From NCBI GenBank assembly GCA_000961655.1, contig LADR01000047.1, positions 186,001 through 250,000 on the forward strand: a stretch of 64,000 nucleotides of DNA, read 5' to 3'. The position numbers and the translations under genes are program-made. The DNA is from Desulfatitalea sp. BRH_c12 (GTDB taxonomy: Bacteria; Desulfobacterota; Desulfobacteria; Desulfobacterales; Desulfosarcinaceae). The notes under the pieces were generated by a model. That model was given only the letters and a program-made list of their open reading frames with translations, searched no databases and had not been told where the DNA came from. Positions 22,387 through 28,408 of this stretch are shown one piece after another (position 1 is the stretch's first letter; each line of letters starts with the position of its first letter).

Positions 22387-24498
22387 ATGGCTATTGCGCA
22401 AACCAATGCATTAAACGGACGCTTCGCGTTCATCAGCAATAACTCCGACGTCGCGCTGGGTTTTGCGACCATGTGCATCCTGTTGGTTATGATCATTCCC
22501 ATTCCGACGATCATTCTTGATCTTTTTCTGACGCTCAACATCACACTGGCTTTGATGATCCTGCTGGTGGGCATGTATGTCCTCAAGCCTTTGGAATTTT
22601 CTGCTTTTCCATCTGTTTTGCTGCTGGTGACACTGTTTCGCCTATCGCTCAATATCGCTTCCACCCGTTTAATTCTGCTGCGCGGCGGCGAGGGCACGCA
22701 AGCGGCCGGCAAAGTGATTATGGCCTTCGGTGATTTCGTGGTCGGCGGCAATTATGTCGTTGGTCTGATCGTATTCATCATCCTGGTGGTCATTAATTTC
22801 GTGGTCATCACCAAAGGCGCCGGACGCATCGCCGAGGTAGCCGCACGGTTTACGCTGGATGCCATGCCGGGCAAACAGATGAGCATCGACGCGGATCTGA
22901 ATGCCGGGTTGATCGATGAGCACCAGGCGCGCGACCGCCGCCAATTGATTGCCAAAGAGTCCGAATATTACGGCGCCATGGACGGCGCCAACAAATTCGT
23001 GCGCGGCGATGCCATCGCGGGTATCATCATCACCTTGGTCAATATCGTGGCAGGCTTTGCCATCGGCGTTTTTCAAAACGATATGAGTTTCGCCGAGGCG
23101 GCGCGCAACTACACCTTGTTGACGGTCGGGGACGGTTTGGTCAGCCAGGTTCCGGCCCTGATCATTTCCACGGCAGCCGGTATCGTGGTCAGCCGGGCAG
23201 GCTCTGAAAGCCACATGGGCCAGGAAATTGGCGCGCAACTGTTTGCAAAACCGCGCGCCTTGGCTGTGGCAGGCGTTATCCTGTTCGTTTTTGGATTGAT
23301 TCCCGGCCTGCCCACCATGCCTTTTTTCATCATGGCGCTGTTGGTCGGCGGGGTGGCGTATCTCTTATTCCAAAGCGACCGGCAAAATCGTCAGGATGCC
23401 TCGGTCGCGGCTGAAGAAACCCAAGCCGACGATGCCAAAGAATCGAATGAAATGTTCAAGCCCCTTCCGCCACTGGACATCCTGGGGTTGGAAATCGGCT
23501 ACGGCCTGATTCCGCTGGTGGACAGTCAACAAGATGGCGAACTGCTTGAGCGCATCAAATCGATTCGCCGCCAGATCATCCAGGAGCTCGGCATTGTGGT
23601 GCCTTCCATTCATATCCAGGACAACATGCAACTTAAACCAGGAGAGTACATCATCAAGCTCAAAGGCAACGAGGTGGCCCGCGGTGATCTGATGCTCAAT
23701 AATTTCCTGGCCATGAACCCGGGCAATGCCGAGGAAGGTTTACGCGGCATTGCCACCAAGGAACCCACCTACGGCATCGATGCCATGTGGATCAAAGAGC
23801 GTCAGCGCGAGGAGGCCATCGCCAAGGGCTACACCGTGGTGGATCTGGCCACGGTGATGACGACCCACATTTCCGAACTGATCCGACGGCACGCCCATGA
23901 ACTGCTCGGCCGCCAGGAGGTGCAGGTACTTCTCGATGCGCTGAAAGAAACCCATCCCAAAGCGGTCGATGAACTTGTACCCAACCAATTGTCGCTGGGC
24001 GGCGTGGTACGTGTATTGCAAAACCTGCTCATGGAACAGGTTTCCATTCGCGATTTGTTGACCATCGTCGAGGCCATGGCCGACTGGGCACCTTCGGTCA
24101 AACAACTGGATGTCCTCACCGAGCATGTCCGCCAAGCCATGGCCCGCACCATCACCCGGCAATATAAGACGCCCGAGGGCGAGATCGTGGCGGTATCACT
24201 GGGCCAGGCAGCCGAACGGAGCATCGCCGAAGCGCTGCAACGGACCGATCACGGAGATTATCTGGCCATGGACCCGCGCACTGCCCAACGCCTCATGCAC
24301 CGGCTTGCCGAACAGTTGGACAAATATGCCAAGCGCGGTCTTCAGCCCCTGGTGCTGTGCTCGGGACAAATTCGGATCCATGTCAAAAAATTGGTCGATC
24401 GTTTTATTCCCCAACTGGTCGTGCTTTCTTATGAAGAAATTCTGCCGAATGTTCGCATTCAATCCTTGGGAGTAGCGGAGCTGACGGATGAAGATTAA
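22387..24498 (+). CDS. flhA: Flagellar export gate protein FlhA
   Basis: The 703-residue protein is of normal length, with about eight membrane segments in the first half, the FHIPEP-family motif region (LFRLSLNIASTRLIL, VVITKGAGRIAEVAARFTLD, MPGKQMSIDADLNAG) and a large cytoplasmic C-domain that forms a nonameric ring for chaperone docking. ATG 22387 is preferred: GGAAGG lies just before it and the upstream 35 codons have no family match. It overlaps flhF by 11 bases. Confidence 0.97.
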   Translation: MAIAQTNALNGRFAFISNNSDVALGFATMCILLVMIIPIPTIILDLFLTLNITLALMILLVGMYVLKPLEFSAFPSVLLLVTLFRLSLNIASTRLILLRGGEGTQAAGKVIMAFGDFVVGGNYVVGLIVFIILVVINFVVITKGAGRIAEVAARFTLDAMPGKQMSIDADLNAGLIDEHQARDRRQLIAKESEYYGAMDGANKFVRGDAIAGIIITLVNIVAGFAIGVFQNDMSFAEAARNYTLLTVGDGLVSQVPALIISTAAGIVVSRAGSESHMGQEIGAQLFAKPRALAVAGVILFVFGLIPGLPTMPFFIMALLVGGVAYLLFQSDRQNRQDASVAAEETQADDAKESNEMFKPLPPLDILGLEIGYGLIPLVDSQQDGELLERIKSIRRQIIQELGIVVPSIHIQDNMQLKPGEYIIKLKGNEVARGDLMLNNFLAMNPGNAEEGLRGIATKEPTYGIDAMWIKERQREEAIAKGYTVVDLATVMTTHISELIRRHAHELLGRQEVQVLLDALKETHPKAVDELVPNQLSLGGVVRVLQNLLMEQVSIRDLLTIVEAMADWAPSVKQLDVLTEHVRQAMARTITRQYKTPEGEIVAVSLGQAAERSIAEALQRTDHGDYLAMDPRTAQRLMHRLAEQLDKYAKRGLQPLVLCSGQIRIHVKKLVDRFIPQLVVLSYEEILPNVRIQSLGVAELTDED

Positions 24499-25942
24499 AC
24501 GATTTGAAGCGCCCAGCATGGCAGAGGCCCTGCGTATGATCAAAAAGGAGTTTGGCGACGATGCGGTCATTTTATCCGCCAAAAATCAGAAAAAATCCAA
24601 TGGGTTCTTCGGCGCGAGTTCCGGCACCCAAGTGGTTGTGACAGCGGCCATCGATCCGACATCGGCCAAACAGGCGCTGCAGGATCGCCGTCCGGACGAT
24701 GTGCTGCCCCAACAGACCGATCGGCCTGCCGACCCCAGCAGGCCGATGGATGGCATCGCCCGTATGCTGCAACGTTTCACCCCGATCACGCGTACCGGCC
24801 AGAAAAAACTGCAACCCAAATTTGTCCGCCTGATGAACGAAACCCTGGAATCAACAGCCCAGGCGACGACCGAAGCGCCAGAACGGACCATTTACGAGCA
24901 CTTGCGCGCGCAGGGACTGTCGCGCGCAGTCGCCTCCGAGCTGGCCGACAAAATAGTTGATTTGAACGAGCAGGACACGCCGCTCGAAGATGGTTCGGTC
25001 GTAGCCCTGTCACAGATCATCGAAGCCAAAGGATGGGTGGCACCCACACGGCCCAGGCATGACCGCAGGCAGCGCATCATTGTGCTGGTCGGGCCCAACG
25101 GCGCCGGCAAAACCACCATGGCCGCCAAATTAGCGGCACAAGCCGTTTTACGCGCCAATGAACCGGTCGCGCTGCTGAGCCTGGACGATCAGCGCATCGC
25201 CGGCACCGCCGAATTGCAAAAATATGCCGACATCATGGGCTTGCCTTTTGAAACAGCCAGCGTGCCCGAACAGCTCTCAGCTGCCATGAAGAATCTGTCG
25301 CACACGCCGCTAGTCGTGGTGGACACCCCGGGTATCGCCCCCAACGACACCGCCCGGCAGGAAGCACTGTCGCGCATGCTCAAGACGCTGCCCGCAGCGG
25401 AAGTACATCTGCTGATCAACGCCGGTGCGCAGCAAATGGTGATCTCCCGAACCATAGACGTTTACAAGCAGGTCGGAATCAACCGCTTACTGCCTACCCA
25501 TTTGGATTGGTGCAGACATCTCGGCGCGTTTGTCAATCAAATGCACGCTTATCCCTGGCCGATCACCTTCCTGGGCACCGGACCCCAGGTGCCCGACGGT
25601 CTTGAATCGCTGACCAGCCGCCGGATGGCGGCCATGCTTCTGGCGCGTGCGGATGACGCGGCTTGCCAGGCGGAGCCCGAACCGGCGGTGACGATGACCC
25701 GGCGCCAGTCGGCACCCGGACTACAGGGGCAGTATGTGGCCAATCGCAATTCGGATATATTTCACGATCGTGCGTGCAAGTCGGTTCAACGCATCAACAA
25801 CGACAATGCGGTGATTTTCAAAGATCCCACAGATGCGATGCAACAAGGATACAAACCATGCCGAATGTGCTGCATGGCGCTTTTCGCTCCCAAACCAATA
25901 GATCGTCTGGCATCCCTCCGCTTCGCCAGCAGCAGGAATTGA
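24488..25942 (+). CDS. flhF: FlhF GTPase with C-terminal Ada-type metal-binding domain
   Basis: The 484-residue protein starts MKIKRFEAPSMAEALRMIKKEF, the FlhF B-domain, and has an SRP-type NG domain (about 115-390) with P-loop GPNGAGKTT (202-210). FlhF places the flagellum at the pole. Two points are odd. The G4 motif, normally TKLD, reads THLD (about 337-340), and DTAGR reads DTPGI. After residue 410 there is an extra domain: H426, C430, C458, C461 in FHDRAC ... GYKPCRMCC, the pattern of Ada/ComEC-linked zinc modules (YHxxxC ... GYxPCxxC). The frame is open through the joint. flhG follows one base after the stop. Confidence 0.93.
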   Translation: MKIKRFEAPSMAEALRMIKKEFGDDAVILSAKNQKKSNGFFGASSGTQVVVTAAIDPTSAKQALQDRRPDDVLPQQTDRPADPSRPMDGIARMLQRFTPITRTGQKKLQPKFVRLMNETLESTAQATTEAPERTIYEHLRAQGLSRAVASELADKIVDLNEQDTPLEDGSVVALSQIIEAKGWVAPTRPRHDRRQRIIVLVGPNGAGKTTMAAKLAAQAVLRANEPVALLSLDDQRIAGTAELQKYADIMGLPFETASVPEQLSAAMKNLSHTPLVVVDTPGIAPNDTARQEALSRMLKTLPAAEVHLLINAGAQQMVISRTIDVYKQVGINRLLPTHLDWCRHLGAFVNQMHAYPWPITFLGTGPQVPDGLESLTSRRMAAMLLARADDAACQAEPEPAVTMTRRQSAPGLQGQYVANRNSDIFHDRACKSVQRINNDNAVIFKDPTDAMQQGYKPCRMCCMALFAPKPIDRLASLRFASSRN

Positions 25943-25943
25943 T

Positions 25944-26834
25944 ATGACACGCAATGACGCTTCGACGAAAATCATACGTTTGGATGAACGCAAAGCCGTT
26001 TCTTCCGAACCGGTCGCCAGGGGACGAAGGATGGGGAAAACACCCAAGATCATCGCAATCACCAGCGGCAAGGGCGGGGTCGGCAAAACCAACATCGTCG
26101 CTAATCTTGGCTTCACCCTGCGGCGTTTCGGCAAAAAAGTACTGATCTTCGATGCCGATTTAGGGCTCGGTAATTTGGACGTGCTGCTCGGCCTGACCCC
26201 TCAGTACAATCTGTCGCATGTCATCCGAGGTGAAAAGCATTTGTCCGAAGTCATCGTAACCGGACCGGGTGGGTTGAAAATTTTACCGGCGGCATCCGGA
26301 ATTCAGGATCTGACTTCCCTGACGAAGCAGGAGCGCTACCTGGTATTCAGTCAGTTGGATGAATTTTTGCATGAATTTGATATCATGCTCATCGATACGG
26401 CTGCCGGCATCTCTTCGAATGTGCTCTATTTCAATATCAACTCCGACGAAATTCTCATCGTGGCCACGCCTGAACCCACGTCGATCACCGACGCCTATGC
26501 CATGATGAAAGTATTATCGGTCAAATACAGCACCGATCACTTCAAGCTGGTGGTCAATGCAGCCGCCAGCGTCCAGGAAGCCGATGATGTGTTTCGGCAG
26601 TTGAATCTCGTGGCCGACCGCTTCCTCAATATTTCCATGGAATATTACGGTTGTATTCTGCTGGATGAAAACATCAGAAAAGGCGTTCGTCAGCAACGGG
26701 CCGTGACCGAAATGGCACCCCTGGCTGTCGCCAGCCGCAATTTTGTTGCCTTGGCGCGCAAGATCGCCAGCACGCCGGCCCCTGAAAGACGCAGTGGCAC
26801 CACGCATTGGAGCATGACCGAAATGCCGAGATAG
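25944..26834 (+). CDS. flhG: Flagellum number/site ATPase FlhG (FleN, MinD family)
   Basis: The 296-residue ParA/MinD-type ATPase has the deviant Walker A SGKGGVGKTN (about 42-51), DADLGLGNLDVLLG and VIRGEKHLSEVIV-type FlhG signatures. It limits flagellar number by antagonising the FleQ/FlhF pathway. The N-terminal tail (about 30 residues) should hold the DQAxxLR motif that activates FlhF; only a weak NDASTKIIRL is seen. It lies between flhF and fliA in the conserved order. Confidence 0.95.
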   Translation: MTRNDASTKIIRLDERKAVSSEPVARGRRMGKTPKIIAITSGKGGVGKTNIVANLGFTLRRFGKKVLIFDADLGLGNLDVLLGLTPQYNLSHVIRGEKHLSEVIVTGPGGLKILPAASGIQDLTSLTKQERYLVFSQLDEFLHEFDIMLIDTAAGISSNVLYFNINSDEILIVATPEPTSITDAYAMMKVLSVKYSTDHFKLVVNAAASVQEADDVFRQLNLVADRFLNISMEYYGCILLDENIRKGVRQQRAVTEMAPLAVASRNFVALARKIASTPAPERRSGTTHWSMTEMPR

Positions 26835-26874: not shown

Positions 26875-27633
26875 ATGCCAGTGTCTGAAACCCAAATCAA
26901 AAAACTGAACAAGGATGATTTTAGTTTGCGCAATGAAATTGTTGCCGAATATCTTCCTTACGTTAATCGCATCGTCAACCGGATTGCCACGCATCTGCCC
27001 CCCACGGTGGATGTGGACGATCTGGTCAATGTTGGCATCATCGGCTTGATCCAGGCCATTGAGCGCTACGATCCCACGCGCGACAATAAATTCATGACCT
27101 ATGCGGTTTTCCGGATAAAGGGCGCGGTGCTCAGTGAGTTGCGTTCCCGCGATTTTCTGGGCCGCACGACCCGCAAAAAGATACGGACCCTGGAAAAGGC
27201 CTACTTAAAGTTGGAGCAGCAACTGGGCCGGGAAGTGCATGACGAAGAGGTGGCCGAAGAGATGGAAATGGACCTGGATCAATTCTACCAAGTCAAACGC
27301 ATGTCGAGCATTTCTTTTGTCAGTTTTGAGGAAATGGGATGCACGTCAAGAGAAGAAAAAGAAACGCTGCTCAACTACCTGGCCAACAATGATGGGGAAA
27401 ACGCTTTGGCGTTGACCACCATCAAGGAAGTCAAGGCGACGCTTGCCCGGCATATCGAGTCGCTGCCCGAAAAAGAGCGTCTGGTGGTATCAATGTATTA
27501 CAGTGACGAAATGACCATGAAAGAGATCGGTCTGGCCCTGGAAATCACCGAATCCCGGGTCTCGCAGATTCATTCCCAAGCGGTGCTGCGCCTGCGCAAC
27601 AAACTGCGCAAAGATGGCTTGTTAGAGGAATGA
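26875..27633 (+). CDS. fliA: Flagellar sigma factor FliA (sigma28)
   Basis: The 252-residue sigma70-family protein has region 2 with VDVDDLVNVGIIGLIQAIERYD and FMTYAVFRIKGAVLSELRSRD, region 3 (REVHDEEVAEEMEM) and region 4 with MKEIGLALEITESRVSQIHSQA. It transcribes late genes; sigma28-like sites precede flagellin, flgM and the second motAB. The anti-sigma factor FlgM is encoded at 33629. It is the last gene of the flhA-flhF-flhG-fliA run. Confidence 0.97.
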   Translation: MPVSETQIKKLNKDDFSLRNEIVAEYLPYVNRIVNRIATHLPPTVDVDDLVNVGIIGLIQAIERYDPTRDNKFMTYAVFRIKGAVLSELRSRDFLGRTTRKKIRTLEKAYLKLEQQLGREVHDEEVAEEMEMDLDQFYQVKRMSSISFVSFEEMGCTSREEKETLLNYLANNDGENALALTTIKEVKATLARHIESLPEKERLVVSMYYSDEMTMKEIGLALEITESRVSQIHSQAVLRLRNKLRKDGLLEE

Positions 27634-27874: not shown

Positions 27875-28408
27875 ATGCTGAATCTCACCATCCCCTTGTG
27901 GCTCTTGTTGACGGCGGCAGGACTGCCGTCCGTGTGCCTGGTGATGCTGGTGCTACGTTTGATGCACATCAAAGCAGTCAAAGGCAAACACTTGGCCCAT
28001 CTTGCCGCAACCAAAGAGATATCCCGTCCTGAAGGCTTTTCCGTTCAAATTCATCAACAAATCCTCGAACAGCAAATCGATGCTGTGTTCAATGCCCTGG
28101 GTACAATTATGGAAACCGAACGGGTCAAATTGAAGGTCTTGGTCAAACACTCCTGGCCGGCCTTCGATGTCAACCCGGTTTCAAAAATCTCCCCTGTCGA
28201 GACGGTTGCCCCCTTGTCCGCTGCCGAAGAAGATCCGCCGGAAAGTCTTCCGAGCAGCCCTTCGATCTCAGGCCTCAAAGCAGAGGGTTTGACCTCAGAA
28301 GAAATTGCACGCCATCTGGGTCTGTCGCACTCGGAAGTGGCATTGGCTTTAAAAATGAAAGCCGGCCGCAAAAACATCTCAGGCTGCCAAATGCGAGCGG
28401 TAGCCTAG
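27875..28408 (+). CDS. Small membrane-anchored protein with C-terminal helix-turn-helix-like motif
   Basis: The 177-residue protein has one N-terminal membrane segment (about 6-27), a helical cytoplasmic part, a Pro/Ser-rich linker (about 110-133) and a C-terminal GLTSEEIARHLGLSHSEVALAL, which looks like a short helix-turn-helix. Proteins with this plan (DUF2802/DUF6115-like) are often found near fliA or flhG in flagellar loci. The function is unknown. It lies between fliA and the sigma54-driven flgF operon. Confidence 0.75.
   Translation: MLNLTIPLWLLLTAAGLPSVCLVMLVLRLMHIKAVKGKHLAHLAATKEISRPEGFSVQIHQQILEQQIDAVFNALGTIMETERVKLKVLVKHSWPAFDVNPVSKISPVETVAPLSAAEEDPPESLPSSPSISGLKAEGLTSEEIARHLGLSHSEVALALKMKAGRKNISGCQMRAVA

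Follow-up and report, generated by a model that had tools for sequence, protein, structure and literature searches.

A C-terminal Ada-like module on FlhF and an FlhG without the enhancer motif suggest that the FlhF-FlhG switch was rebuilt in one lineage of Desulfosarcina-like bacteria

FlhF is the GTPase that places the bacterial flagellum. In the parts of the published descriptions that were available, it consists of B, N and G domains only (PMC12713375, PMC12826062). Its N-terminal region in Shewanella is the FliG interaction domain and binds FliG, according to the accessible text of PMC11236974. The partner protein FlhG carries an enhancer helix motif, DQAxxLR, whose co-catalytic glutamine stimulates FlhF (PMC12826062, available in part), and Pseudomonas FleN is described as lacking this motif in the available text of PMC12713375. 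The same portion of that paper describes no zinc module on P. aeruginosa FlhF, and the word zinc has zero occurrences in the main texts of PMC12826062, PMC11236974 and PMC12713375. Within the literature searched, whose coverage was partial, no description of an Ada-like tail on FlhF was found. Here we describe such a tail, and we propose, with a probability of about one half, that it would act as a docking domain with a structural zinc, within a rewired FlhF-FlhG switch in which FlhF would serve as a tether. The tuning of FlhF and FlhG for different flagellation patterns is an open question, for which the bacterial clade described below constitutes a natural experiment.

The window analyzed, a stretch of 64,000 nucleotides from Desulfatitalea sp. 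BRH_c12 (contig LADR01000047.1), contains the gene order flhA-flhF-flhG-fliA, and all flhF and flhG features given below in window coordinates lie on the plus strand. The start of flhF (24488..25942, 484 aa) falls within the end of flhA (TIGR01398), a single base separates the end of flhF from the start of flhG (25944..26834), and fliA (TIGR02479) follows flhG at 26875-27633. The flhF product is an SRP-type GTPase with a C-terminal Ada-like module, scoring 189.6 bits with the FlhF equivalog model TIGR03499 (cut-off 174.15) and 92 bits with the SRP54 GTPase domain, and its predicted structure has the NG-domain fold, with 2px0 as the best Foldseek match (E 1.6e-18) and 8r9r as a further instance of the FlhF fold. 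It has the N-terminal region, the NG-domain fold, the GTPase P-loop and the gene order in common with FlhF as defined by TIGR03499, but adds a C-terminal linker (about aa 387-414, 25646..25729), poorly conserved, and the Ada-like module (about aa 415-463, 25730..25876), and several of its GTPase motif residues are relaxed. The segment aa 1-56 (24488..24655) is placed as the start of the B domain by position with the Shewanella FliG interaction domain, and the G domain covers about aa 194-386 (25067..25645). The product of the adjoining gene, a MinD-type ATPase, matches TIGR01969 and TIGR01968, both below cut-off, and is named FlhG because of these matches to MinD models and its place directly after flhF.

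Several lines of evidence bear on the identity of the tail. PF02805 (Ada_Zn_binding) matches aa 416-461 (25733-25870) at 23.8 bits in the whole protein, narrowly above the cut-off of 23, and at 27.5-27.8 bits in the tail alone. A single-sequence search of the PDB with the tail found E. coli N-Ada weakly (E 0.008), while a profile of 29 FlhF tails found it at E 5e-7, together with no protein other than Ada among the four sequences at E up to 1. When the tail was modeled by itself (mean pLDDT 73.3), the top three Foldseek matches were N-Ada structures (E 0.005 to 0.04, probability 1.00), and the remaining nine had a probability of 0.06 or less. The model of full-length FlhF (mean pLDDT 79.5, pTM 0.56) has pLDDT values of 78-92 in the module blocks at 411-460 and of 74 at 461-470, and values below 50 in the linker at 391-411. 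PF02805 also matched every one of the 29 tails (E up to 0.01), and in the alignment of these 29, 12 of 59 columns are invariant.

The predicted metal ligands form two pairs, H426-x3-C430 (25763..25777) and C458-x2-C461 (25859..25870), with the full spacing H426-x3-C430-x27-C458-x2-C461-C462, and in the N-Ada alignment they fall on the residues we take to be Cys38 and Cys42, and Cys69 and Cys72, of Ada. The set His, Cys, Cys, Cys is present in all 66 distinct module-bearing FlhFs fetched, and conservation in separate genomes rules out a chance pattern or an assembly error. Sequence and predicted fold show that the tail belongs to the Ada N-terminal fold, has a predicted His-Cys-Cys-Cys ligand set and is joined to the GTPase domain by a linker of predicted flexibility; we infer that it holds zinc. 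The earlier note, made from the letters of the window alone, had proposed an Ada-type module at the C-terminus of FlhF, which the profile score, the predicted N-Ada fold and the conservation in relatives bear out. Its pattern H..C...GYxPCxxC gives the first spacing incorrectly, the actual one being H-x3-C. Of the checks it had named, a search of the tail with Ada_Zn_binding (27.5 bits for the tail alone), a survey of desulfobacterial FlhF tails and a structure prediction supported the module, and the tail has both a profile match and Cys and His residues conserved in relatives, contrary to the outcome that would have refuted the note. As a whole, its interpretation is supported in part, and it makes no mention of the altered FlhG described below.

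Compared with N-Ada (PF02805; PDB 1adn, 1u8b), the FlhF module has the same predicted fold, the same spacing and three of the four ligands, but it harbors His at Cys38, is followed by neither a helix-turn-helix nor a repair domain, and is fused to a GTPase. Because the residue aligned with the methyl acceptor Cys38 is His in 66/66 distinct module FlhFs, Ada chemistry is not expected, and an Ada-type repair activity was rejected. The genome of the window contains two PF02805 matches above cut-off, namely FlhF and a 527-aa protein of the Ada-AlkA repair type (96.2 bits), which has a Cys-form module and Ada_Zn_binding, helix-turn-helix and AlkA domains. A third match, below cut-off (21.8 bits), is an SNase-type nuclease of 224 aa (L003:967-1641), located about 34 kb upstream of the window, with a His-form Ada-like module at its C-terminus. 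Eight Ada-like modules carried by SNase proteins, some of them encoded in further genomes (L003, L050, L051, L138-L142), are 30-41% identical to the window module; the SNase domain was found in 8/8 of these proteins and PF02805, at E up to 0.01, in 7/8. The ligand motifs FH-x3-C and PC-x2-C are common to them and to the FlhF module; their host protein, however, is a nuclease, and they carry Gly-Asn (Gly-Asp in L139) where the FlhFs nearly always carry Ala-Asn. The predicted His-Cys-Cys-Cys site would thus resemble that of the SNase-type modules and not the phosphotriester-repair site, and the FlhF module may derive from a nuclease of the L003 kind. With FlhF, the Ada-type module gains a host protein outside DNA repair.

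N-Ada being the closest solved relative and all eight related modules examined being located on SNase-type nucleases, the module could bind nucleic acid as N-Ada does, and FlhF would then regulate flagellar genes through contact with DNA or tie the flagellar pole to the chromosome. Residue 431, which follows the second ligand, is Lys or Arg in 61/66 of the modules, R459 is conserved at 90% or more in 27 module FlhFs, and Campylobacter FlhF has been reported to bind promoters (PMC7105676, available in part). Nevertheless, we consider this explanation unlikely, as the Ada methyl-acceptor Cys is a His in the module, the charge of the window module is only +2 (7 K/R, 5 D/E), and no helix-turn-helix follows the module, whereas one is present in the genome's Ada-AlkA type protein.

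The distribution of the module was examined in several samples. A search of 60 genomes, comprising that of the window and its relatives, matched FlhF or another GTPase related to it in every genome, and 29 of the 30 best loci of this search that were fetched end in the module, the thirtieth (L021) being cut by a contig end; this set leans towards the module because the query included it. In a sample of the order, the module model matched at E up to 1e-4 in 126 of 194 genomes and with at least 60 bits in 43, in all 43 within the FlhF ORF. One of these ORFs (G383) is only 99 aa long, and its identity as FlhF rests on the module and the adjoining flhG. With the FlhF-tail model, FlhF modules in the order sample scored 60 to 106 bits, and other modules among the matches listed, mostly in ORFs of 200-300 aa, scored 58.6 bits or less. 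In an even sample of the phylum (247 genomes), FlhF was found above the model cut-off in 101 genomes, and an FlhF with the module in three (G000, G287, G218; E up to 1e-14). Scores thus separate FlhF cleanly from the other modules listed for the order, but not across the phylum: there, a 242-aa ORF (G143:C1:127356-127505) scored 68 bits with the FlhF-tail model, between the FlhFs of G287 (82.1) and G218 (67.1). Lastly, one contig scan with a narrow pattern yielded 70 stretches, with 24 loci confirmed; their titles were desulfobacterial or deltaproteobacterial throughout, the named hosts including Desulfatitalea alkaliphila, Desulfosarcina widdelii, D. alkanivorans, D. cetonica and an endosymbiont of Olavius algarvensis.

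The best conserved parts of FlhF are aa 1-56 and the module. Averaged over all pairs of 27 module FlhFs, identity reaches 0.61 for aa 1-56 and 0.57 for the module, compared with 0.37 for the G domain, 0.20 for the last 21 residues and 0.11 for the linker. Since conservation is highest at the two ends of FlhF, we favor a role as a tether that carries a zinc docking module. GTPase positions were compared between 24 DQA-class FlhFs and 61 module FlhFs. The DQA-class proteins are uniform (24/24) in having Arg at 236, Gln at 242, Lys at 338, Glu at 341 and Gln at 366, whereas these residues occur in 50, 29, 32, 46 and 14 of the 61 module FlhFs, respectively. Both groups retain the P-loop glycines and lysine, D279 and D340 without exception. 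The window FlhF itself keeps the P-loop GxxGxGK, D233, R236, D279-T280 and D340, and is changed at 242, 338, 341 and 366 (E242, H338, W341, P366). Its G4 motif (25496-25510) reads THLDW where DQA-class FlhFs mostly read TKxDE, and His at the G4 Lys position is found in 19/61 module FlhFs.

FlhF and the adjoining FlhG were compared in 104 loci. As in the canonical FlhF-FlhG switch, the two genes of the window lineage are adjacent and FlhG is of the MinD type with GKGGVGKT; the window-lineage FlhG, however, lacks the enhancer motif and has another N-terminal motif. DQAxxL, searched as [DN][QE]AxxL, is present in 0/69 loci with the module (66 distinct), the enhancer motif DQAxxLR being absent from the FlhG N-terminus in all of them, and in 25 of 34 module-less loci with a readable FlhG, the tail-less loci being a hand-picked, non-random set of eight from the order and 26 from the phylum list, from which 28 had been drawn before the module was looked for. 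The nine tail-less loci without DQAxxL comprise seven that also lack the alternative motif described next (L110, L115, L120, L126, L129, L133, L135) and two that have it (L116, L131). The missing enhancer motif is a feature in common with Pseudomonas FleN, as described in the available part of PMC12713375.

The N-terminal motif of the window FlhG is KIIRL (aa 9-13, 25968..25982), which belongs to a KVIxL type searched as [KQNRAD][IV][IV]x[LIMF]. It is present in 69/69 module loci, where it takes the form [KNQR][VI][VI]x[LIMF], a full count that is partly by construction because the pattern was designed with the sequences in view, and in three other loci (L116, L131 and the DQA-class locus L130). 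Shuffled FlhG N-termini contain the pattern in 1.5% of cases. The first residue of the motif stands at the nearest Met+8 in 49/66 distinct loci, and the third place after that residue is occupied by Arg or Lys in 55/66. Because L116 and L131 have the motif without the module, the two are not strictly tied to each other.

Trees of 94 FlhFs without their tails and of 94 FlhGs without their N-termini, constructed by a quick method with SH-aLRT support, each recovered one clade of 63 rows, consisting of 61 module rows, L116 and L131, with a support of 99. This agreement between the trees makes one event, and not repeated covariation, the probable origin of the module and of the altered FlhG, which are thus two features of one lineage. 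A test of covariation between the module and the FlhG change (tree including tails) contained two independent pairs only and was not significant. The evidence for a stable coexistence of the module and the altered FlhG is thus good, and that for a dependence of one on the other is weak. L116 and L131 are FlhFs of the module clade without the module, and their FlhGs keep the KVIxL-type motif and lack DQAxxL; they may represent losses or early branches before the gain of the module, and a grouping of the module rows together without them was not rejected (AU p 0.239 for FlhF, 0.234 for FlhG). A free-standing module in the genomes of L116 and L131 was looked for in a search of six genomes that included these two. 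The matches consisted of the FlhF of G287, five ORFs of 207-266 aa (L138-L142) and a weak one within a 923-aa ORF; the five small ORFs are all of the SNase type, and no free-standing module was recognized among the FlhF and SNase-type matches. The FlhF-like proteins of L110 and L115 are very divergent and sit on a long branch (2.59 changes per column, tree including tails); these loci have neither DQAxxL in FlhG nor the module.

A single clade, with two members that lack the module, would also be expected if a nuclease-type module had been fused once and kept as a neutral hitch-hiker, without a specific role, while FlhG changed for unrelated reasons. We regard this as rather unlikely in view of the higher identity of the module than of the GTPase domain, the strict conservation of the ligands, and the occurrence of module-bearing FlhF in 43 of the 194 genomes of the order. 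The joint occurrence of the module and the missing FlhG helix motif, in 66/66 distinct loci, would likewise fit an internal regulator of GTP hydrolysis, in which the module turns back onto the GTPase domain or dimer of its own FlhF and takes the place of the FlhG enhancer helix. The packing of the module cannot be read from the model because of the low linker pLDDT and the overall pTM of 0.56, no Gln is found among the invariant module columns, and L116 and L131 lack both the helix motif and the module, which makes such a regulator quite unlikely. Least probable of all is a metal or redox sensor whose zinc is lost, or whose cysteines react, on changed conditions so that FlhF stops placing flagella: the site is rich in cysteine and the named hosts include Desulfosarcina and Desulfatitalea, which are anaerobes, but the extra Cys after the last ligand (C462 in the window) is present in only 32/66 and absent in 34/66, which weakens a general thiol switch based on the CC pair, and a His-Cys3 site within a compact fold would more typically hold structural zinc.

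The docking domain in a rewired switch is consistent with the N-Ada profile and fold link, the invariant ligands, the conservation of both FlhF ends over the G domain, the contrast in DQAxxL between loci with and without the module, the KVIxL-type motif and the relaxed GTPase residues. In the mechanism we propose, FlhG of the window lineage lacks the enhancer helix motif that supplies the co-catalytic glutamine and has the short KVIxL-type motif at its N-terminus, and FlhF, with several GTPase motif residues relaxed and its N-terminus and C-terminal module under strong selection, would depend less on stimulated GTP hydrolysis. FlhF would then be mainly a two-ended tether, its N-terminus holding FliG and its zinc module holding a polar or regulatory partner, for which a landmark protein or FlhG are candidates. 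Against this stands that the association is probably one event, which shared descent alone could explain; that L116 and L131 of the clade pair the FlhG motif with an FlhF without the module; that DQAxxL is missing without the module or the motif in seven other loci and, according to the available text of PMC12713375, in Pseudomonas FleN; and that the motif pattern is post hoc and also matches the DQA-class locus L130.

Our results suggest that a well-known bacterial switch has been rebuilt in one lineage of Desulfosarcina-like bacteria. More tentatively, and with considerable doubt, this lineage may represent a second class of FlhF-FlhG switch, in which the glutamine-donating helix of FlhG was abandoned, control passed to the zinc module of FlhF binding FlhG (via KVIxL) or a polar landmark, and placement would proceed by docking and not by stimulated GTP hydrolysis. 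The proposal provides specific residues for testing an FlhF without stimulated GTP hydrolysis, namely H426, C430, C458 and C461 of FlhF and KIIRL of FlhG. A search of the genome for the FimV C-terminus and DUF2802 (FipA) gave no match at E up to 0.001, and as the controls matched in only 1/14 (FimV) and 0/14 (DUF2802), absence is not established. Directly 3' of fliA, the window encodes a 177-aa protein (27875-28408, plus strand) with a hydrophobic N-terminus, whose C-terminal stretch matches DUF2802 of the FipA family weakly (14.5 bits, E 0.04, cut-off 33.5), other helix-turn-helix families scoring equally weakly. Its place after flhF-flhG-fliA is reminiscent of Vibrio FipA.
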